Source of the DNA: Candidatus Bathyarchaeota archaeon
GTDB taxonomy: Archaea; Thermoproteota; Bathyarchaeia; TCS64
Length of the DNA: 55,996 nt
Assembly (NCBI GenBank): GCA_018396695.1
Contig: JAGTQU010000010.1
Location: forward strand, 1-55,996
Direction: 5' to 3'
Shown: in pieces, positions 12,790 through 47,286 of the stretch
Layout of the letters: every line of letters starts with the position of its first letter
Position numbering within the stretch: position 1 is the stretch's first letter
Translations under genes and position numbers: made by a program
Notes under the pieces: model-generated
What the model saw: only the letters and a program-made list of their open reading frames with translations
Database searches by the model: none
Told to the model about the DNA's origin: nothing

Positions 12790-14238
12790 TTGAAAGAATC
12801 CAAAAATCTTAGGTTCTATGATACTTTGACGCGTAGAAAGCGCGGGTTTAAACCTTTAAAAGACGGAAAGGTTGGAATGTATGTATGCGGACCGACTGTA
12901 TACAGTGATCCCCATATAGGAAACTTTCGCAGCTTCATCGTTGGAGACCTAATCCGCAGGTGGCTGGAGTACAGAAAATATGAAGTATTCTACGTTATGA
13001 ATATCACCGATATAGACGATAAGACGATACGGGATTCAGGCAGAGAAGGGGTTTCTCTCAGAGAGTTTACTGATCGTTACACTAGATCTTTCCTGAAGGG
13101 GATAGATCTACTCAATATTAAGAGGGCTACGGTATATCCTAAGGCGACTGAGAATATTCTTGAGATGATAGAGTTTATCCAAGAATTGATAGAAAAGGGT
13201 TTAGCATATGAAGCCAGCGACGGGGTATACTTTGACATAGACAAGTTTCCAGGCTATGGGAAGCTCAGCAGGATTGAACTCTCAGCTGTGAAGCCGACCG
13301 AAAGGGTTTCTTCAGACGAGTATGGAAAAGAGAGCCCAAACGACTTCGCCTTGTGGAAGGCCGCATCAGACGAGGAACTTGAGAGAGGGATTTTTTACGA
13401 TTCTCCATGGGGTAAAGGGAGACCAGGGTGGCATATAGAGTGCAGCGTCATGTCTAAGAAGTATCTAGGAGATACTATAGACATTCATGCTGGCGGGGAG
13501 GATCTCATCTTCCCGCACCATGAAAATGAAATCGCACAGTCTGAGGGGTTAACGGGTAAAACCTTTGTCCGATTTTGGATGCACATTGGATATTTGATGA
13601 TTAATGGGAGGAAGATGAGTAAAAGCCTCGGAAACTATATTTCTTTTGACGAGGTTTTATCCAAGTATACTCCAAACGAGTTCCGCTACTTCTATCTTTC
13701 GACGCATTATAGAAAGCAGATAGACTATACTGAAGAGGCTATGGCGAATGCTAAAAACGCATCTAAGAAATTGAGTAACACGATAGACCTGGCAGAAGAA
13801 GCCTTCAAATCTGGCTTGGAGCGACTTGAATACGGAAAACGTGAAGAAGAGTTCTTGAATGGAATACTGGGATTGAAAAGCGACTTTGAAGATGCCATGG
13901 ATGATGATCTGGATACTCCTAGGGCTTTGAATACTCTTCATCAGATGTCTAAGCTAATAAACGAATACCTTTCTAAGCCAGTCAATAAGGGAGTCCTCTC
14001 TGAAGCGTATGAAATATATAGGAGCCTACTGGGCGCCCTAGGTTTATTTGAGAAGAGAACATCCTTTGAAGGAGGTCTATTTGAGGAGCTCATCAAAGTA
14101 ATTATTGAGACTAGAGAAAAGTTGAGATCAGAGAAGAATTATGCACTATCAGATAAGATTAGGGAATTGCTCTCCAAGATTGGAGTTATTTTAAGCGACA
14201 AACCCGACGGAACTAGCTGGACAATTGAAAGAAGATGA
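12790..14238 (+). CDS. cysS: Cysteinyl-tRNA synthetase
   Basis: A 482-residue class I synthetase that charges tRNA-Cys. The HIGH-like motif is in VYSDPHIGN (near residue 38), preceded by the zinc ligand Cys in MYVCGPTVY. Further zinc ligands are in HIECSVMS and HHENEIAQ, and the signature GRKMSKSLGN is near residue 277. The C-terminal helical and DALR-like region is complete. The start is TTG, preceded by a good GGAGAGGA ribosome site. The stop overlaps the next start (ATGA), so it is coupled to the endonuclease V gene. Confidence 0.96.
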   Translation: MKESKNLRFYDTLTRRKRGFKPLKDGKVGMYVCGPTVYSDPHIGNFRSFIVGDLIRRWLEYRKYEVFYVMNITDIDDKTIRDSGREGVSLREFTDRYTRSFLKGIDLLNIKRATVYPKATENILEMIEFIQELIEKGLAYEASDGVYFDIDKFPGYGKLSRIELSAVKPTERVSSDEYGKESPNDFALWKAASDEELERGIFYDSPWGKGRPGWHIECSVMSKKYLGDTIDIHAGGEDLIFPHHENEIAQSEGLTGKTFVRFWMHIGYLMINGRKMSKSLGNYISFDEVLSKYTPNEFRYFYLSTHYRKQIDYTEEAMANAKNASKKLSNTIDLAEEAFKSGLERLEYGKREEEFLNGILGLKSDFEDAMDDDLDTPRALNTLHQMSKLINEYLSKPVNKGVLSEAYEIYRSLLGALGLFEKRTSFEGGLFEELIKVIIETREKLRSEKNYALSDKIRELLSKIGVILSDKPDGTSWTIERR

Positions 14239-15089
14239 ATTTCAAAGGCTTCGATTTTTACAACGCTTTACGTGATATTCTTAACCAGATACCTGAAGGT
14301 GAAAAGGCATCTATAAGAGATTTGGCTCTATCTTTAGGAGATATTAAAGCCGTCCCCACAATTCGAACAGCCTTAGACAAAGAAGAGTTCAGCGGATTTA
14401 AAGAGAAGATACTGGAGACAAGAAAGGCTAGGGGATTGTTCAGAGGTTTCGTGACAGACTATCCGCTAAAGAAACTCGCCATGCTTCAAAAAGAGATGGC
14501 GACCAGAGTCCAGCAAATTGATCTTTACCGTTCAACCGAATTTATAGCTGGAGTCGATGTATCATATGAGGGTGAATTTGCGTATGCGGCTGCAGTAGTC
14601 CTCAACAGCCAACTTGAGATTGTTGATCAAGCAGTTTCGAAGACGAGGGTTAATTTTCCTTACATCCCTGCCTATCTCGCTTTCAGAGAGGCTGAGCCTA
14701 TAAAATCAGTCGTGAGGCTTTTACAACATTTCGACATTCTAATTATAAATGGGCATGGAGTCGCCCACCCTGGGGGTTTTGGTTTAGCATGCCATGTAGG
14801 AGTTGAGCTTGATAAGCCAACCATAGGAGTAGCTAAGAGCCTTTTGACAGGGAAAGCGAAGACGGTTTCTGGGGATAAGTCGGTTATCGAACATGCGGGA
14901 AAAGTTATTGGATCCGTAATCAGTAGACCGGGATTTAAACCGTTATATGTTTCTGTAGGTAACAAAATATCACTTGAATCTGCGTTGAGCATAGTTAAGA
15001 ATACACTGTTAGACGCATATTTACCTGAACCGTTGAGGATACCTCATCTTTTAGCGACTTCTCTTAAAAGAAGAGATAAGCGCCTTTAG
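14235..15089 (+). CDS. nfi: Endonuclease V with N-terminal MGMT-like helical domain and altered active site
   Basis: A 284-residue protein. Residues about 85-280 match endonuclease V, which nicks DNA or RNA near deaminated bases: GVDVSYE (D108), PYIPAYLAFREAEP (E152), then INGHGVAHPGG and IGVAKSLL. The third metal ligand, normally Asp in VDGHG, is Asn172 here, a one-base GAT to AAT change. The Arg of HPR is Gly. Residues 1-75 (ALRDILNQIPEGEKASIRDL and onward) resemble the DNA-binding helical domain of O6-alkylguanine transferases, without its active Cys. Activity may be weakened or changed. Coupled to cysS by ATGA. Confidence 0.85.
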   Translation: MNFKGFDFYNALRDILNQIPEGEKASIRDLALSLGDIKAVPTIRTALDKEEFSGFKEKILETRKARGLFRGFVTDYPLKKLAMLQKEMATRVQQIDLYRSTEFIAGVDVSYEGEFAYAAAVVLNSQLEIVDQAVSKTRVNFPYIPAYLAFREAEPIKSVVRLLQHFDILIINGHGVAHPGGFGLACHVGVELDKPTIGVAKSLLTGKAKTVSGDKSVIEHAGKVIGSVISRPGFKPLYVSVGNKISLESALSIVKNTLLDAYLPEPLRIPHLLATSLKRRDKRL

Positions 15090-17500: not shown

Positions 17501-18460
17501 ATGCATTTGAAGCAATTTGGAGATATATGCCAATTTAAGATTCCTTTAATCCGAAACCCGTTAAAATATACTCTCACATATTTTATTAAAAGTCAAAACA
17601 CGCTTATAGATCTAGGTGGAGAAAGCGAAGAGGCTAAAGACGCTTTAAAAAGACAGCTTTTAGCTGCTGACTCAAGCCTTTCTAAGATAGAAAAAGTTGT
17701 TTTAACCCATTTACATCGAGACCATTCAGGTTTAACTAATTATCTAAAAGAGAATTCAAACGCCACAATATACACTCATTATGTTAGTAGAAATTATTCC
17801 ATAGAAAATAACGACTTGAAGGAATTAATCCTTAAAGAGTTTTACATGTTTGGAGAAAACAGCATTATTTTTCCTAAGATTATCCTACATCAGATTCAAA
17901 ACAAGTCTTCTAGTAGATCAGAAGCATATGTTAGTTTAAACGACAACGATTATTTAGATAGCGATAAAAGGTTCCAAGTCATATGGACGCCTGGTCACGC
18001 ACCTGAGCATATTTGTATATACGATAACCAGCTGAAAATATTGTTTTCAGGCGATCATGTACTACCTAGAATCACTCCCCATATAAGCCTACACATTAAC
18101 GAAAAAACGAACCCGTTAAAAGATTACATAGAATCGCTTGAGAAAATAAAGAAACTTGATATCAAGCTTGTTCTTCCAGCCCACGAATCTGAGTTTAAGG
18201 ATCTTGAAAAGAGAGTGGAGGGAATAGAAAAACATCATTTATCAAGACTTGAAGAGATTAAAGACACAGTTAGAAAAGGTGAGAAAACCGTACATCAGAT
18301 ATCTTCAGAACTCTCATGGAAAAGCAGTCCATGGGGCTTCATGCCTTTTTGGATAAAGCACATGGCAGCTTGCGAGACTTACGCGCATCTGATCTACCTG
18401 AGAAATCGAGGAGATATATATGAATCCATTAAAAATGGGAGACTATACTATAAAATCTAG
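17501..18460 (+). CDS. Metallo-beta-lactamase-fold hydrolase
   Basis: A 319-residue MBL-fold protein with the binuclear metal motif H-L-H-R-D-H (residues 70-75), a later GHAPEHICI loop and the Asp in FSGDHVLP. The C-terminal 90 residues are helical and end in a winged-helix-like part seen in some MBL proteins (glyoxalase II or LACTB2-like group). ATG start with GGAGAG just upstream. Six bases after nikR, so probably co-transcribed. Substrate unknown; thioester or lactone hydrolysis is typical. Confidence 0.8.
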   Translation: MHLKQFGDICQFKIPLIRNPLKYTLTYFIKSQNTLIDLGGESEEAKDALKRQLLAADSSLSKIEKVVLTHLHRDHSGLTNYLKENSNATIYTHYVSRNYSIENNDLKELILKEFYMFGENSIIFPKIILHQIQNKSSSRSEAYVSLNDNDYLDSDKRFQVIWTPGHAPEHICIYDNQLKILFSGDHVLPRITPHISLHINEKTNPLKDYIESLEKIKKLDIKLVLPAHESEFKDLEKRVEGIEKHHLSRLEEIKDTVRKGEKTVHQISSELSWKSSPWGFMPFWIKHMAACETYAHLIYLRNRGDIYESIKNGRLYYKI

Positions 18461-18465
18461 TCTTT

Positions 18466-19122
18466 TCATCTCCAAACTTTTACTCCATTCTCCAAGAGAT
18501 AATCTGCTGTTAAATCCGCAATGTCTGGTGCTCTGAAGGGCATGTTTAATTCTTTAACATGTATGATAATCTCTCTAAAGGTTATCTCGTTTCTCCTATT
18601 TTCAGTCAGATACTTATCGAGAATAGTCTGGGCAACTTCTTCTGCAATCCTGAATTTTGGGCTAAGCTTCTTGAAGTGAAGTTTAAAAGCCTTAGATACT
18701 TCATTGCCTGATGCGCCTTTCAAGGCCCAGACTATAGGCCTCGGTCCTCCTTTTGAATATTTAATCTTTGATATTTTCACTGCAGGAGAAATCATATCAA
18801 GAGCTCTTAGAATTTTTAAGGTTCTATAAACTGTAGCTTCAGGCATTCTCAACTCAGTTTGAAGAATCCATGCTGTTGCAGCCCCATGTAAACAAAAATA
18901 GGCAAAAACTTCGGCCGTTGAGGGGGATGAAAATATTTTTTCATTCAGTGATAATAATTTCTGCATTATTTTTAAGGTTTCTTGGAAGTTATTTTTTTCA
19001 CATGATAATAATAACTTACGGTAAAAATCAATATAGTTTTTAACATCGTTCTCATTTTCTGGGAATAATTCTTTATCTGAATGCTTATTAATAGCTAGCT
19101 TTGAGGAGTATTCATTAATCAA
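18466..19122 (-). CDS. Winged-helix transcriptional regulator
   Basis: A 218-residue protein with a helical N-terminal half and a winged-helix segment near residues 75-125: ILQTELRMPEATVYRTLKIL is a clear recognition-helix pattern, followed by a Gly-Gly-Pro turn and WALKG. The C-terminal third is helical with a possible second DNA-binding region. It resembles TrmB/ArsR-like archaeal regulators without being clearly any one. It is convergent with the MBL gene and divergent from the RHH gene at 19.2 kb. Target unknown. Confidence 0.6.
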   Translation of the reverse strand: MINEYSSKLAINKHSDKELFPENENDVKNYIDFYRKLLLSCEKNNFQETLKIMQKLLSLNEKIFSSPSTAEVFAYFCLHGAATAWILQTELRMPEATVYRTLKILRALDMISPAVKISKIKYSKGGPRPIVWALKGASGNEVSKAFKLHFKKLSPKFRIAEEVAQTILDKYLTENRRNEITFREIIIHVKELNMPFRAPDIADLTADYLLENGVKVWR

Positions 19123-19185
19123 TCTTTATCACCAGAATGATAATTAGACATAGTAACCTGTCGATAAGCTTATAAGATTACTCGT

Positions 19186-19211
19186 TAACATGTAAACTTG
19201 TAAACATGTTA
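19186..19211. promoter_or_regulatory. Perfect 8-bp inverted repeat, candidate autoregulatory operator
   Basis: TAACATGT, ten bases, then ACATGTTA. A TATA-like CTTATAAG lies near 19169-19176, placing the expected transcription start inside the dyad. The dyad ends eight bases before the proposed GTG start of a ribbon-helix-helix protein. Repression of its own gene by that dimer is the simple reading. Confidence 0.5.
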
Positions 19212-19218
19212 GCAAGTG

Positions 19219-19654
19219 GTGGACGATAACGTCAAAAAAGAACGTTGCGATAAGGGGTCTCGATTTCGAGATTTACAAAGAAATCTTTAGCATAGCGAAA
19301 AGTGAAGGAAAGCGTGTTTCAGATGTTGTGAATCAGGCGCTCCAAAATTTTATAAAAAATCCTAATAGTGAGAATAATAAAAATGGTTTTAATAGTTTCA
19401 GTGATAAATTTATTTTAAGAAATAATGGTGAAATATCCTTATCTAAAAACGATATAATTAGTCTAAAGAAAGAAGTTGGTTCATTTATAATTGAAAATAA
19501 CGGCCACATAGTATTTGAAAAGGATGTAGATAACGAAACTTTAAACTATATAGATGGTATAATCATACGTGATGGCCAAGTTGAAGTTCCAAAATCCATG
19601 TACTACCAATTTCTTATAAAATCTGAGATTCATGGAAAACTCCAAAAATATTAG
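19219..19654 (+). pseudogene. Ribbon-helix-helix regulator, apparent frameshift at the N-terminus
   Basis: The frame ending at 19654 is open from about 19196. Upstream of its first canonical start (GTG 19328) it encodes a clear RHH domain: NVAIRGLDFEIYKEIFSIAK, then RVSDVVNQALQNF. No ATG, GTG or TTG lies in this frame before that domain. GTG 19219 opens the neighbouring frame (MDDNVKK) and joins it if one A is dropped from the run of six at 19234-19239, giving 144 residues. Starting at 19328 would delete nearly all of the DNA-binding domain. The C-terminal 80 residues are mixed beta/alpha (FILRNNGEISLS, GHIVFEKDVD) and unrecognised. A DUF99 gene follows. Confidence 0.6.
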
Positions 19655-19670
19655 TTTAATGTGAATTTTG

Positions 19671-20231
19671 ATGGTTTCTAAATCAGTGATCGGCGTCGAG
19701 GATGGTTCGTTTAAAAGTTTTGATGGAAAAAATGGCTTTACCCTACTTTGCTGTGTTTTAATGGATAATTATAAAATATTGAAAGTATTCTTTTCTAGAA
19801 TACAAGTCGATGGGATAGATGCAACCTCCAAACTCTTGAAAATGATTACCGACGTTGAATACTCGGCGATCATTTTAGGAGGCGTAACCTTCGCAGGTTT
19901 TAACATAATTGACCCTAGAAAAATTTTCGATGAAAAGCAATTGCCAGTAGTAATCTACTCTAACCGAAAACCTAACAGTGAAAAAATTCTAAATGCATTG
20001 AAAAAACATTTCAAAGATTGGGATAAAAGATGGAGCATCCTCCAAAGTCTCGGGAACATATACGAATTTGAAGTTAAACCAGGATACTCCCCAATATATT
20101 TCGAAATTATAGGGGAGACTCCAGAATACGCTAAGAGTATTCTCAAAAACTACACCATCATATCTAGAGTCCCAGAACCAATCAGAATTGCTAAAATTAT
20201 AGCAAGAGGTGTCAGCCTCAAAGATTCATGA
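19671..20231 (+). CDS. DUF99 / UPF0215 protein (endonuclease V homolog)
   Basis: A 186-residue member of the archaeal DUF99 family, related in fold to endonuclease V. Family landmarks are IGVEDGSFKSF at the N-terminus, VDGIDATSKLL, GGVTFAGFNIID and LPVVIYSNRKP. The Asp of the DG motif found in true endonuclease V is Gly here (ILGGVTF). TTG 19668 is an alternative start. It follows the RHH gene by 16 bp and overlaps the 3' end of the convergent PolD small subunit gene by 14 bp. Its biochemical role is not established. Confidence 0.85.
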   Translation: MVSKSVIGVEDGSFKSFDGKNGFTLLCCVLMDNYKILKVFFSRIQVDGIDATSKLLKMITDVEYSAIILGGVTFAGFNIIDPRKIFDEKQLPVVIYSNRKPNSEKILNALKKHFKDWDKRWSILQSLGNIYEFEVKPGYSPIYFEIIGETPEYAKSILKNYTIISRVPEPIRIAKIIARGVSLKDS

Positions 20232-27798: not shown

Positions 27799-30700
27799 AT
27801 GCTTTCTTATCTCAACGCATCTTTAGACTATCAAAAATATTTTGAAGACTTAAAGAGCAAACTAAATATTCTATACGAGATAGCTGAAAAAGCTAAGAGT
27901 AAAGGAATAGACCCAAAAACTACAGTCGAACCAAAAATCACTCTTGATATAGCTGAAAGGGTTGAGCAGCTAGTAGGTCCACAGGGTATAGGAGAAAGGA
28001 TAAGACAGCTTGAACACTTAGATCGACGTGAAGTCGCCTTTAAAATAGCTGAAGAGATTGTAGGGGGCAGTTTCGGCAGATTCGAGTTAGAAAAAGCGGC
28101 GGATCAAGCTATACGTACGGCTTTAGCCATTTTAACCGAAGGAGTAACCATTGCTCCGATAGAAGGCATACCAAAGATTAAGGTCAAGGAGAATTCAGAC
28201 AAAAGTAAATACTTATCAGTGTATTTCGCAGGGCCTATAAGACCTGCTGGAGGAACGGCTCAAGCTTTAACGCTAGTAGTAGCTGACTTTGTTCGTCAAA
28301 GGCTTGGGCTAGATCGATTCAAACCCTCTGAGGATGTGGTGAAGAGGTTTGTAGAGGAGGTCAGAATCTATGAGCGCCAAGTACGGAGATTTCAATACCA
28401 TGTTACAGACTCGGATCTAGAGTTCGCGATTAGAAACCTCCCAGTCGAGGCTACTGGTGTTGGCACAGAAAAAATAGAAGTATCAAGCTTCCGAAATGTA
28501 CAAGGTATCGAAACCAATAGAGTTAGAGGCGGAGCCCTAATCGTAATAGTTGATGGCGTGATTGGACGTGCGAGGAAGCTTCTAGGTATCTGCCAAGAAT
28601 GCCGTCTCGAAGGCTGGGACTGGCTTGAAAAGATAGAGAAACTGAACTCAGAGTCTGACAGCACAGTAGGCTTCATGGAGGAGATCATCGTAGGTAGGCC
28701 AGTATTCTCATTTCCGAAAAGGGTAGGGGGTTTCAGGCTAAGATATGGTAGAGCTAGAACTACGGGTCTTGCTGCAGTAGGGGTTCACCCTGCTTCGATG
28801 GTTATACTGAATAAGTTTCTGGCTACGGGTGTTCAGCTTAGGACAGAGTTTCCGGGGAAATCGGCTGTGATTACTCCTGTTGATTCCATTGAGCCTCCAG
28901 TAGTTAGACTAAGGAATGGCACAGTAGTTAGAGTCGATTCTGTAGAGCATGCTGAAAGACTTCAAAAAATGGTTGATCGTATACTCTATTTAGGAGATAT
29001 TCTAATCAATGCAGGAGACTTCATTCAAAATAATAAGCATCTCCTTCCCTCAGGGTATGATGAAAACCAGTGGATTCTGGATCTCAGGGAAGCCGTTGAG
29101 AAAACGGGCTTAAAGGCTTTCAGCGAGAGTGTTAGGCTTTCGCAGGAGAAGATAAGAACATTTCTTGAAGATCTAACTTGCCATCCAGATCCAAGAGAGG
29201 CTTTGGCAATAAGTTTGAAAGGCGTTCCGATTCATCCAAAGTATAACTATCACTGGTCTCAAATCAACAAGGATGAGTTACTCAGCCTAAGGAATAATCT
29301 AATGCGAAATTGGCCGGCTTCTGAGCCTTATATAGTTAAATTAGATGGTAAAGATAAGGAACTCCTTGAAAATTTATTAATTCCGCATCGAGTTACCGAG
29401 GAAGGTATAGTCTTCGAAGAGGCAGGGGTGATTCTCGAAAAGCTTCTTGGCCTAACCAATCATAACGCTTCTATAGAAGGAGAAACGCCTTTAGAGATGC
29501 TTGAGAAGATCTCAGGGATCATTGTTAGAGACAAGGCCCCAACATTCGTTGGGGCTAGAATGGGGAGGCCAGAGAAATCTAAGGTTAGGATGCTCTCCCC
29601 ATATGTTCATGGATTGTTCCCCATAGAAAACGCTGGAGGGCCTCAAAGAGATATAATTAAAGCGATAGAAGGAAACGTTTACGTTGAAATCCACGATAGA
29701 TCCTGTCCCAAATGCGGTAGACGAGCGTTCACTGCTATATGTCCAGAATGCGGAGTAGAAGCCAAAACATACTTCACTTGCCCACGTTGCGGTAGAAAAA
29801 TCGAAGAGGACTTCTGTCAAAACTGCAAAGTCAAGGCATTACCATACAGAAACATAAAGCTTAACGTGCATGAAATTTTAAACGAAGCTCAAAACAAAAT
29901 TGGTGACAAATTACCTGAAAAAATCAAATGCGTTAAGAGACTGATGAACGCAAAAAGAATGCCTGAGCCCCTAATTAAGGGACTACTTAGAGCACGCTAC
30001 GACCTCTCAGTCTTTAAGGATGGAACTATCAGATTTGATATAACCGATGCTCCTTTAACTCATTTTAAACCCTCTGAAATCGGGGTTCAAATTGACAAAT
30101 TAAAGAGTCTAGGCTACTCAAAAGATATAAATGGTGCCCCTCTAGAGTCGCCAGACCAGATTCTAGAGCTAAAGATCCAAGACGTTATTCTGCCGGAGGG
30201 GTGTGGGGACTATCTAGTCAAGATTTCAAAATTCATAGACGACTTGTTATTAAAGTTTTACGGATTACCTTCATATTATGGAATTGATAATAGACTCGGG
30301 TTAGTAGGGCACTTGGTTATGGGTCTAGCCCCTCATACATCTGCAGCCGTTGTAGGTAGGATCATCGGTTACACTAAAAACAGGGTTTGCTACGCCCATC
30401 CATTATGGCATGCGGCGAAGAGACGTAACTGTGATGGGGATGAGGATGCTATTCTGCTAGGTTTAGATCCCTTGCTTAATTTTTCAGAGGATTATCTTCC
30501 TGAACAGATTGGAGGAATGATGGACGCACCCCTCTTTATTATCTCAGTTGTCAACCCGAAAGAGGTTGATAAAGAGGCGCATAACTTGGACGTTTCACAG
30601 CATTATTCTAAAAAATTCTATGATCTGAGTACGAGATCAGCTAGCCCAAGCGAGTATTCACCGCTCATGGATACTATTGGAAGAAGGCTTGGAAGCGAAT

Positions 30701-31206
30701 CCCAGTTTGAAGGATACAAGTATACTGTGAATTGTTCGGACATAAACCTAGGATCGCACCAAGGGGCTTACACTTCTTTAAAAACGATGCTAGAGAAGCT
30801 TGAATCTCAACTAGAACTGTCAGAGCGATTAAGACCGGTGGATGTCAAAGTAGTAGCACTTAAGGTTCTCAACAGCCACTTCATGAAAGACATCGTTGGA
30901 AACCTAACCGCCTTCACTAACCAAGGTTTCAGATGCATTAAATGTAATCAAAGGTATCGTAGACCTCCTCTCAAAGGACATTGCTTAAGGTGCGGAGGGT
31001 CAATAGCACTGACAGTTCATAAGGGAGGGATTGAAAAATATCTAGAGCCCGCTTTAAAGCTTGTTAAAAAATATGATCTAGGTGACTATTATGACCAGAG
31101 ACTTCAGCTCATAAAAAGCGAGATCGCCTCTCTCTTTAAAAAAGTTGAGGCTAAAGAGCCGCCTCAAAAAAGAAGAGTCGATCTTACCGATTTTATTCGA
31201 GGATAG
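27799..31206 (+). CDS. polC: DNA polymerase D large subunit DP2 (catalytic)
   Basis: A 1135-residue subunit carrying the polymerase active site of PolD, the replicative enzyme of most archaea outside Crenarchaeota. The catalytic acidic motif NCDGDEDAILLG is near residue 876. A four-ribbon zinc region is near 636-680 (CPKCGRR, CPECG, CPRCG, CQNC), and a second is near 1045-1065 (CIKCNQRY, CLRCGG). The N-terminal GPIRPAGGTAQAL motif is also typical. No intein interrupts it, unlike many euryarchaeal homologs. It follows GGGP synthase by 13 bp. Confidence 0.97.
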   Translation: MLSYLNASLDYQKYFEDLKSKLNILYEIAEKAKSKGIDPKTTVEPKITLDIAERVEQLVGPQGIGERIRQLEHLDRREVAFKIAEEIVGGSFGRFELEKAADQAIRTALAILTEGVTIAPIEGIPKIKVKENSDKSKYLSVYFAGPIRPAGGTAQALTLVVADFVRQRLGLDRFKPSEDVVKRFVEEVRIYERQVRRFQYHVTDSDLEFAIRNLPVEATGVGTEKIEVSSFRNVQGIETNRVRGGALIVIVDGVIGRARKLLGICQECRLEGWDWLEKIEKLNSESDSTVGFMEEIIVGRPVFSFPKRVGGFRLRYGRARTTGLAAVGVHPASMVILNKFLATGVQLRTEFPGKSAVITPVDSIEPPVVRLRNGTVVRVDSVEHAERLQKMVDRILYLGDILINAGDFIQNNKHLLPSGYDENQWILDLREAVEKTGLKAFSESVRLSQEKIRTFLEDLTCHPDPREALAISLKGVPIHPKYNYHWSQINKDELLSLRNNLMRNWPASEPYIVKLDGKDKELLENLLIPHRVTEEGIVFEEAGVILEKLLGLTNHNASIEGETPLEMLEKISGIIVRDKAPTFVGARMGRPEKSKVRMLSPYVHGLFPIENAGGPQRDIIKAIEGNVYVEIHDRSCPKCGRRAFTAICPECGVEAKTYFTCPRCGRKIEEDFCQNCKVKALPYRNIKLNVHEILNEAQNKIGDKLPEKIKCVKRLMNAKRMPEPLIKGLLRARYDLSVFKDGTIRFDITDAPLTHFKPSEIGVQIDKLKSLGYSKDINGAPLESPDQILELKIQDVILPEGCGDYLVKISKFIDDLLLKFYGLPSYYGIDNRLGLVGHLVMGLAPHTSAAVVGRIIGYTKNRVCYAHPLWHAAKRRNCDGDEDAILLGLDPLLNFSEDYLPEQIGGMMDAPLFIISVVNPKEVDKEAHNLDVSQHYSKKFYDLSTRSASPSEYSPLMDTIGRRLGSESQFEGYKYTVNCSDINLGSHQGAYTSLKTMLEKLESQLELSERLRPVDVKVVALKVLNSHFMKDIVGNLTAFTNQGFRCIKCNQRYRRPPLKGHCLRCGGSIALTVHKGGIEKYLEPALKLVKKYDLGDYYDQRLQLIKSEIASLFKKVEAKEPPQKRRVDLTDFIRG

Positions 31207-44502: not shown

Positions 44503-45381
44503 ATGAAGAAAAGAGGAGAACGACCAATAAAGGGACTATTATTTTTCTTCGCATTCTTAGCTTTAATAATCTTATCCCTAATATTCATTTTTCTAGTGAG
44601 GGAAGCTCTTCCCATTTTTTGGGTCGTATCACCCTTCGATTTCCTGGCGGGTGTGGAGTGGGCGCCGGCATCTTTCACGGATCCTAGCTACGGTATTCTG
44701 CCCCTAATCTCAGGAACCCTTTTAGTGGTTTTAACGGCAACGCTTATCGCCGTTCCTATAGGTATAGCTTGCGCTATTTATCTCGCAGAGGTAGCTGACA
44801 GCAGGCTGAAGGAGCTTCTGAAGCCCTTATTGGAGATTCTCGCCGGGATCCCGTCCGTCGTCTACGGGTTCATCGCTCTTGTCTTCCTATCCGGAATCGT
44901 TCATAACGTCTTCAACACAACATACAGGCTTAACGCGTTGAATGGAGGATTGATCTTAGCTCTAATGATTCTTCCAACCATAATTACGATTTCAGAAGAT
45001 GCAATAGACTCTGTGCCCAGAGATTATAGAGAAGCGTCGCTTGCTATGGGCGCAACAAAATGGGAGACTATAAGAAGAATCACATTGCCGGCTTCGAAGT
45101 CAGGCATAACCGTCGGAGTTATGTTAGGCTTAGGACGCGCGGTTGGTGAAACGATGGCGGTTATGATGGCGACAGGTAACTCTCCAGTCATCACTTTTGA
45201 TATTCTCAGATCCATTCAAACTATGACTGCGACAATAGCCATCGAGATGGGAGAGGTAGTGTTAGGAAGCCCACACTACCACGCTCTTTTCGCAGTTGGT
45301 CTAATTTTATTCCTGATAACATTCGCGATTAACCTGGTCGCCGATGTAGCTGTAAATAGGCTGGGGGTGAAAAGGAGATGA
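44503..45381 (+). CDS. pstC: Phosphate ABC permease PstC
   Basis: A 292-residue permease with six membrane helices and the EAA-type loop (DYREASLAMGATKWETI) that contacts PstB. From ATG 44503 it is complete. An alternative N-terminus exists in the adjoining frame: ATG 44463 overlaps the pstS stop (ATGA) and encodes a hydrophilic leader (MNARKNPDPEAL). It would join this frame if one T were removed near 44541. The usual pst gene coupling favours the longer form, but the shorter form needs no correction. Its stop overlaps the pstA start (ATGA). Confidence 0.9.
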   Translation: MKKRGERPIKGLLFFFAFLALIILSLIFIFLVREALPIFWVVSPFDFLAGVEWAPASFTDPSYGILPLISGTLLVVLTATLIAVPIGIACAIYLAEVADSRLKELLKPLLEILAGIPSVVYGFIALVFLSGIVHNVFNTTYRLNALNGGLILALMILPTIITISEDAIDSVPRDYREASLAMGATKWETIRRITLPASKSGITVGVMLGLGRAVGETMAVMMATGNSPVITFDILRSIQTMTATIAIEMGEVVLGSPHYHALFAVGLILFLITFAINLVADVAVNRLGVKRR

Positions 45382-45464
45382 AAGGAAAAATATTGAAAGA
45401 AAAAATTTTCTTCAACACATTCAAAATTATGACTCTAATAATGGTTTCGATTGTAGTTGGATTA

Positions 45465-45711
45465 ATTGTATTCATAATAGGAAATAGTATTCCGGTTTTA
45501 AGCCTCGATTTTCTATTTAACCCTCCGCAAAACGGAATGATGGCGGGGGGAATCAGTTCTGCAATTGCAGGGACTCTCATCCTCATGATGCTAACCATAA
45601 TTTTCAGCCTTCCTTTGGGAGTAGGGGCTGCTATCTTCCTCTCGGAATATACTGATAAAGTGGATCCTAGGATCATAAGAATGATTAGGCTGGCTATAAA
45701 CAATCTTGCTG
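45465..45711 (+). repeat. First copy of 247-bp direct repeat inside pstA
   Basis: Identical base for base to 45722-45968. It covers membrane helices one and two of PstA. The ten bases separating the copies (45712-45721, TAAGGATCCC) match neither the sequence before copy one nor that after copy two. Confidence 0.95.
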
Positions 45712-45721
45712 TAAGGATCCC

Positions 45722-45968
45722 ATTGTATTCATAATAGGAAATAGTATTCCGGTTTTAAGCCTCGATTTTCTATTTAACCCTCCGCAAAACGGAATGATGG
45801 CGGGGGGAATCAGTTCTGCAATTGCAGGGACTCTCATCCTCATGATGCTAACCATAATTTTCAGCCTTCCTTTGGGAGTAGGGGCTGCTATCTTCCTCTC
45901 GGAATATACTGATAAAGTGGATCCTAGGATCATAAGAATGATTAGGCTGGCTATAAACAATCTTGCTG
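45722..45968 (+). repeat. Second copy of 247-bp direct repeat inside pstA
   Basis: Second identical copy, offset by 257 bp. The pstA frame continues correctly from this copy into the rest of the gene (GVPSIVYGLLG). Confidence 0.95.
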
Positions 45969-46488
45969 GGGTTCCCTCAATTGTCTATGGTCTTTTAGGT
46001 CTAGGCTTGTTTGTTCTATTCCTACAGCTAGGGTTCAGCGTGCTATCCGCGTCACTAACTCTCTCATTTTTAACCCTCCCTGTGATAATAGCGGCGTCTG
46101 AGGAGGCTTTAAGAAATGTTCCAATGGAATATAGAGAAGCGTCTCTGGCTTTAGGAGCATCCAAATGGGAGACGATTAAAAACGTCGTTTTACCCTCAGC
46201 CACGCCTGGGATCCTTACAGCATGTATACTCGGCTTGAGTCGGGCTGCAGGTGAGACGGCTCCTTTATTGATGACTGGTGCAGCGTACTACTTACCCCAG
46301 GTTACCGGCAACATTTTCAAACAGTTTATGGCTTTGAGTACTCATATCTTTTTCATGGCTACCCAGTCCCCGAATCCGGAAGCCACTCGTCCAATTCAGT
46401 TCGGGACAGTGACAGTTCTTCTCTTCATTGTATTGTCAATGAACATGTTTGCCATAATTCTTAGAAGCCGTTATAGGAGGAGATTTAA

Positions 46489-47286
46489 GTGATTGCGAAC
46501 GAACAGCAAACGATCCAGGAATTGGAGAGGGATATGGGTAAGATAGTCTTTTCACAGTTCAACTTATGGTATGGTATGAAACATGTTCTCAAAGACGTCT
46601 CCTTCCCTATTCCAAGCAATCTAGTAACTGCTATTATGGGCCCATCAGGATGTGGCAAAAGTACTCTGCTCAGGGCTATTGACCGGATGAATGATATTAT
46701 TCCAGATTGTAGGGTAAAGGGAGAGGTACACATCGACGGTAGAAACATATATTCTGAAGATGTTGATGTCTACGAGCTTAGGAAGAAGGTTGGCATGGTC
46801 TTCCAGAAGCCTAACCCTTTTCCTAAATCTATCTACGATAATGTAGCGTACGGTCCTAAGATACATAAACTCTATTCTAGTAGGGAATTAGAATTGGCTG
46901 TGGAGAGGAGTCTCCGTAAAGCAGCGCTCTGGGACGAGGTTAAAGATAGGCTTAGTGAAAGCGCGTTAAAACTATCTGGGGGGCAGCAGCAGAGGCTGTG
47001 CATTGCAAGGGCATTGGCGGTTGAGCCTGAGATATTATTGATGGATGAGCCTTGTAGTGCTTTGGATCCTATAGCGGCTTTGAAGATAGAGAACCTTATG
47101 CGAGAGCTCTCGAATAACTATACTGTCGTGCTTGTTACCCATAATCTGCAGCAGGCTGCGAGGGTATCCGATATGACTGCATTCATGTATATGGGTGAGA
47201 TAGTCGAGTATGGTCGAACAAAAGACTTGTTTGCGAACCCTCAGAAAGAGTTGACTGAGAAGTATATAACAGGTAAATTTGGGTGA
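46489..47286 (+). CDS. pstB: Phosphate ABC transporter ATPase PstB
   Basis: A 265-residue ABC ATPase with Walker A GPSGCGKS, the PstB-specific [20 protein letters not shown], signature LSGGQQQRL and Walker [13 protein letters not shown]. Start is GTG 46489 with GGAGGAGA eight bases upstream; ATG 46534 would also give a full ATPase domain. It overlaps the pstA stop. Confidence 0.95.

Follow-up and report, generated by a model that had tools for sequence, protein, structure and literature searches.

In EndoV, D43 and D110 (numbering of the Tma enzyme) coordinate metal, while K139 and H214 lock the product phosphate (PMC4650699). The mutations D52A, Y91A and E100A abolish or nearly abolish the activity of human EndoV (PMC3741642) and D95A that of the T. 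brucei enzyme (PMC5561087); canonical EndoV therefore needs both its acids and its wedge. Two Protein Data Bank entries are titled as complexes of altered enzymes with substrate: 6ozf, Tma EndoV (D110N) complexed with inosine-containing DNA, and 6ozq, mouse EndoV (K155M) with inosine RNA. A 2021 review lists three biochemically characterised archaeal EndoVs, all of them euryarchaeal (PMC8438529), to which a fusion protein from Ferroplasma adds a further one. This fusion, the AGT-EndoV of Ferroplasma acidarmanus, is known alongside ATL-EndoV fusions of archaea (PMC10779285); ATLs, which lack the reactive Cys, are described as repair proteins that read damage (PMC3950489). The sister family of EndoV is Endo_dU (DUF99, PF01949), likewise RNase H-like, which cuts dU DNA despite an incomplete acid set and whose AfuEndo_dU mutant D10A still cuts (PMC11585767). 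In the portions of the open-licence PMC literature covered, we recognised no report of a natural Asn at the place of the third metal ligand.

The window, the whole stretch of 55,996 nucleotides analysed here, encodes a 284-residue protein, P0001, that is the single PF04493 match of its genome (Table 1). The DNA polymerase D large subunit also encoded in the window suggests that the host is an archaeon. This profile covers residues 87–271 (E 1.1e-53, 182.2 bits against a cut-off of 23.4), all 18 solved-structure sequences matching P0001 at E ≤0.1 are named endonuclease V, and an AlphaFold model built on a 51-sequence alignment (pLDDT 96.3, pTM 0.92) fits Tma EndoV 2w35 with a Z of 29.3 over 210 residues at 2.0 Å. 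Profile match and fold thus place P0001 in the EndoV family by descent. Its metal site departs from the canonical three acids (Tma D43, E89 and D110): as the earlier note had stated and alignment to Tma EndoV confirmed, Asp108 and Glu152 are kept and the third ligand is Asn172. The equivalent of K139 is present as Lys201, and wedge Tyr and lesion pocket are represented by Tyr143, Leu148, Gly173, Gly175, Gly183 and Leu204, with Ala146 at the position of Tma Gly83 as the exception. P0001 therefore shares with the D110N variant in 6ozf the fold, the wedge, most of the lesion pocket, the equivalents of D43, E89 and K139 and the residue change itself. It differs from Tma EndoV, apart from Ala146, in that its Asn is natural and common to its homologs in the order, in its fused N-terminal domain, and in that most of its Asn relatives have also lost the Lys. 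The likeness to Endo_dU is more distant, with a Z of 14.7 over 144 residues at 3.2 Å against 2qh9; P0001 lies outside PF01949 (17.5 bits against a cut-off of 32.7), and its wedge and pocket motifs are of the EndoV type.

Table 1. Features of the window that bear on P0001 (positions in the window; correspondence to Tma EndoV where noted)
Feature	Position	Strand	Remark
cysS	12790..14238	+	upstream; 4-base overlap with start of EndoV-family gene
EndoV-family gene, Asn as third metal ligand, fused degenerate alkyltransferase DNA-binding domain	14235..15089	+	284 aa, P0001
PF01035-like helix-turn-helix of alkyltransferase/ATL type	14253..14390	+	residues 7–52; without Cys loop and wing
EndoV (RNase H-like) domain	14466..15074	+	residues 78–280
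Asp108	14556..14558	+	Tma D43; kept
Tyr143	14661..14663	+	wedge PYIP; kept
Glu152	14688..14690	+	Tma E89; kept
Asn172	14748..14750	+	Tma D110; codon AAT
Gly180	14772–14774	+	HPG
Lys201	14835..14837	+	Tma K139; kept
Asn243	14961–14963	+	Tma H214
Endo_dU (DUF99)	19668..20231	+	second hit when the window's genome is searched with P0001
DNA polymerase D large subunit	27799–31206		

Close relatives were checked for Asp at the third-ligand place. Homologs of P0001 occur in 15 of the 32 genomes of its order, P0001 included, and all 15 carry Asn172; the remaining 17 genomes, many of them incomplete, have no homolog. For a wider comparison we tabulated 183 EndoVs: 97 drawn from the 179 genomes of the class that hold an EndoV, 78 from the rest of the phylum and 8 from named loci. 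Four partial rows were dropped (L071, L092, L096 and L107), among them a 144-residue Asn fragment that aligns Gly at 108 (L096) and a row with Ile at 143 (L071). The resulting 179 full-length proteins have Asp (110), Asn (63), Glu (4) or Gly (2) at the third-ligand place, counts that give no frequency, as the sample is enriched in Asn by 21 rows obtained through the Asn pattern and 6 added for matching it. Of 65 group codes, namely 64 family codes and a pooled one for the 8 named loci, 26 include Asn, and the 93 full-length proteins of the class divide into 59 with Asp, 31 with Asn and 3 with Glu. PF04493 as such is present in 179 of 256 class genomes and in 293 of 398 sampled genomes of the phylum. 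The motif N[GA]HGx[AS]HP, searched for as a DNA pattern, matched 37 of these 398 genomes, 34 times within EndoV frames and 3 times outside, with no match for the reversed control. A peptide scan of genome contigs gave 8 relatives and is biased, because YVSVGNKI was among its query peptides.

On a thinned tree of 102 rows, computed with columns 172–174 and 201 excluded and with four long rows and near-copies left out, the Asn trait requires 11 changes, at least 8 of them on starred branches, and loss of the Lys requires 10; gains and losses are indistinguishable in these counts. A single Asn clade uniting the order with families f10, f14, f15, f16 and f26 is not rejected (AU p 0.139), which leaves the number of origins inside the class uncertain. 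In the phylum to which the genome of locus L010 belongs, the Asn pattern matched 1 of 115 genomes, and that match is no EndoV. The 30 best-scoring of its 96 EndoV-holding genomes (L264–L293) have Glu in 24, Asp in 3, His in 2, Gly in 1 and Asn in none, so the third-ligand place tolerates change. It is worth mentioning that family f34 combines Asn, Gly and Glu at this place with Lys in none of its members; two of them, L193 and L194, carry Gly or Glu there and have Arg in place of the catalytic Lys, while relatives under the same family code have Asn.

The state of the Lys follows that of the third ligand. All 110 Asp proteins have it and 49 of the 63 Asn proteins have lost it (Fisher p 9e-31, kinship ignored), P0001 being one of 14 Asn proteins that retain it. 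When pooled, 113 of the 114 proteins with Asp or Glu have the Lys, the exception being L194 with Glu and Arg, compared to 15 of the 65 with Asn or Gly. In the 30 best-scoring genomes of the other phylum, all 24 Glu, the 3 Asp and the 1 Gly proteins have the Lys and the 2 His proteins lack it. Among eight independent pairs, 3–6 agree in Asn and Lys loss, none disagree and 2–5 show no difference; the phylogeny-aware sign test does not reach significance (median p 0.125, range 0.031–0.25). The Lys is nearly always retained beside an acid and often lost without one and, given the role of K139 in the chemistry, a chemistry-tied residue seems to be set free almost only where the acid is absent.

Other parts of the active site are retained. 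Asp108, Tyr143, Glu152 and His178 show no variation across the 179 full-length proteins. Most lesion-pocket residues named in PMC4650699 persist in the Asn proteins, with Gly175 in 62 of 63 (L088 has Arg for it), Gly183 in all 63 and Leu204 in 61. Of the class-set positions whose conservation in Asp proteins reaches 90 % or more, 172 has switched completely and 201 has turned variable; 111, 131, 166, 238 and 250 are also flagged as relaxed in one or both Asn clades. Close Asn pairs among the relatives of P0001 are under purifying selection: dN/dS is 0.13–0.33 across 13 Asn pairs, 0.20 for one Asp/Asn pair and 0.08–0.48 across six Asp pairs, three of which are unreliable at dS ≤0.06; P0001, without a near relative in this set, is in none of the pairs. 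Two further substitutions were dropped as catalytic hints. The earlier note was right that the Arg of HPR is Gly in P0001, and its use as a functional clue did not hold, since this place is Arg, Tyr, Phe, His, Leu, Ser, Asn or Thr in Asp proteins and Gly is private to P0001 among the 63 Asn proteins. Asn243 was discarded as a lost catalytic His because 27 of the 110 Asp proteins share this Asn and, in E. coli EndoV, the place of Tma H214 is taken by Asp (PMC4650699).

The N-terminus had been proposed to resemble the DNA-binding part of an alkyltransferase, and this was borne out by the relatives more than by P0001 itself. On P0001 alone, PF01035 stays below its curated cut-off (residues 7–52, E 0.0082, 16.4 bits against 27; 19 bits as a fragment). 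Across 15 fused N-termini it matches 13 at E ≤0.1, the best at 4e-22, and none of the other families matches more than three of them. Within the order, 14 of 15 homologs carry the fused N-terminus, the exception being L024. A profile of the N-terminal domain finds ATL1 (E 1.4e-4) and Ada (1e-3) behind a designed protein (8.3e-5), for which no individual stretch passes by itself. The model of the domain (pLDDT 87.8) gives a best Foldseek E of 0.02, a weak value, but the top 40 hits consist of alkyltransferases, ATLs and tags derived from these. ATL1 is the nearest natural protein both by profile and by VIA-align, the latter with a Z of 6.5, a value that can mean only a common arrangement.

In common with AGT-EndoV and ATL-EndoV, P0001 joins an alkyltransferase-type domain to EndoV, a pairing that the 13 matched N-termini support. 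It has neither the active-site Cys of an AGT nor an ATL pocket in which the Cys is replaced, as the loop that would hold them is missing. The 13 fused proteins of families f1 and f3 in the alignment lack about 30 residues of Cys loop and wing and have Asn in their EndoV half, whereas fused L007 keeps both the Cys loop with its Cys and the Asp, and fused L028 has Leu for Cys together with Asn. ATL1 (3gva/3gx4) offers a parallel as an alkyltransferase-type domain in a protein without reactive Cys; P0001 retains only the first half of that domain. As aligned, the N-termini look like a decay series, and the fusion is a degenerate form of the AGT/ATL-EndoV fusions already known. The genome also holds a separate PF01035 gene on contig C87 (E 7.9e-33) and a weaker match on contig C71.

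The position beside cysS, which the earlier note had called an unusual coupling, is shared by 9 of the 15 loci of the order, the window included; the 4-base overlap was seen in the window only. In L012 the C-terminal end of cysS lies about 1 kb upstream, in L016 and L017 a frame that is transporter-like by eye stands between the two genes, and in the DNA around the EndoV gene of L018, L022 and L028 no cysS was seen. Endo_dU lies 4.6 kb downstream of the EndoV gene in the window; L011, L013 and L021 have it no farther than about 1.3 kb away. In these three loci the arrangement found at 17501–20231 recurs near EndoV, namely a minus-strand regulator-like gene, a small gene (both judged by eye) and Endo_dU. 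The metallo-beta-lactamase-fold gene at 17501–18460 has look-alikes, again by eye, after EndoV in L012, L014 and L015. Farther away, the neighbouring permease frames at 45378–45734 and 45794–46492 share about 58 identical residues and look like a tandem duplication or an assembly fault. EndoQ was considered as a stand-in for EndoV and rejected: TIGR00375 matches, none of them above the cut-off and presumably EndoQ-like, occur in 187 of 256 class genomes and 4 of 32 genomes of the order, and the window's genome has none, so that no simple replacement is visible.

Taken together, Asn as third metal ligand recurs among archaeal EndoV-family proteins, P0001 being one of them, and we give an even chance to the reading that it binds inosine with canonical cleavage lost or crippled. 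Most likely, the kept wedge and pocket would still flip and hold inosine or hypoxanthine in nucleic acid, one metal might be held on Asp108 and Glu152, and canonical two-metal cleavage would be absent or very poor. The N-terminal helix-turn-helix, the remnant of an alkyltransferase minus its active-site loop, probably adds nucleic-acid binding; a recruiting or protecting role may be envisaged. Crystallisation of Tma D110N with inosine DNA supports binding without the third acid and, judging from the title of 6ozf, this form was presumably picked as an inactive one. Several observations speak against this reading, namely the retained Lys201 of P0001, the non-significant pair test and the 17 genomes of the order without a homolog. 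Furthermore, a pure binder need not keep Asp108 and Glu152, and their invariance in all 63 full-length Asn proteins suggests that the site is probably still in use.

The strongest competing explanation takes up the last point and holds that P0001 is still a nuclease, in which a neutral Asn172 with Asp108 and Glu152 forms a changed metal site and the Lys is dispensable, perhaps with another metal or substrate preference. His178 is kept in the same 63 proteins, P0001 and 13 others retain the Lys, and the Glu-Lys combination prevails among the best-scoring EndoVs of the other phylum. The sister family offers a precedent as well, since Endo_dU cuts with incomplete acids (PMC11585767) and its third-ligand place varies too. 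Matched by motif rather than by structure alignment, Archaeoglobus Endo_dU 2qh9 has Pro there, and 32 class motifs including that of the window have Asn in 16, Asp in 9, Ser in 5, Tyr in 1 and Gly in 1, the Gly being found in the window's Endo_dU (a hit with stop codons in L021 was dropped and L131 gave no motif). This precedent, together with the D10A result, holds the inosine-binding reading at no better than even. Against an altered nuclease stand the loss of the Lys in Asn proteins only, when compared to Asp proteins, and the inosine complex of D110N. Of the functional options raised by the earlier note, the binding-only reader is therefore the better supported one and the enzyme with altered metal use is possible but doubtful.

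That the gene has lost its activity and the protein is merely drifting is improbable. The patchy presence in the order and the mixed residues of f34, none with the Lys, would fit such decay, but dN/dS in the 13 Asn pairs of relatives, the four residues invariant throughout the full-length set, the open frames and the shared cysS adjacency do not. We consider it more improbable still that Asn172 serves as a switch, turning into Asp upon ageing or heat and thereby restoring the canonical site. Asn-Gly is the fastest-deamidating pair, P0001 has the other acids and the Lys that a restored site would require, and Gly adjoins the Asn in 14 of 14 Lys-keeping Asn proteins compared to 37 of 49 without Lys (Fisher p 0.053, kinship ignored). 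Gly is however the common residue at this place in any case (in 104 of the 110 Asp proteins), deamidation may be slow where the loop is ordered and the site folded, most Asn proteins lack the Lys, and no precedent was recognised in our literature search. A sequence error or private mutation, for which one base change would suffice and which the earlier note had kept as an option, is ruled out, as each of the 14 homologs in the order's other genomes carries Asn.

Returning to P0001 as an inosine binder, we tentatively extend this reading to the phylum, as a possibility that we rate below even: EndoV may have turned repeatedly from a cutter into a non-cutting inosine reader, the third acid apparently being lost first and then the Lys while the base-flipping parts were kept, and in this order the reader would have been joined to a stripped alkyltransferase DNA-binding head beside cysS. 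EndoV is regarded as a conserved catalytic family, and by Pfam match every Asn protein would be annotated as endonuclease V. Should these proteins prove unable to cut, DNA-repair annotation is in error for many archaea, and the proteins with Asp and Lys, with Asn and Lys, and with Asn but no Lys form a natural series for studying the passage from base-flipping nuclease to reader. Should they turn out to cut, there is a second chemical route within EndoV. Should the reader interpretation be true, these archaea would possess a dedicated inosine-binding factor for DNA or tRNA, of a kind for which we found no description.
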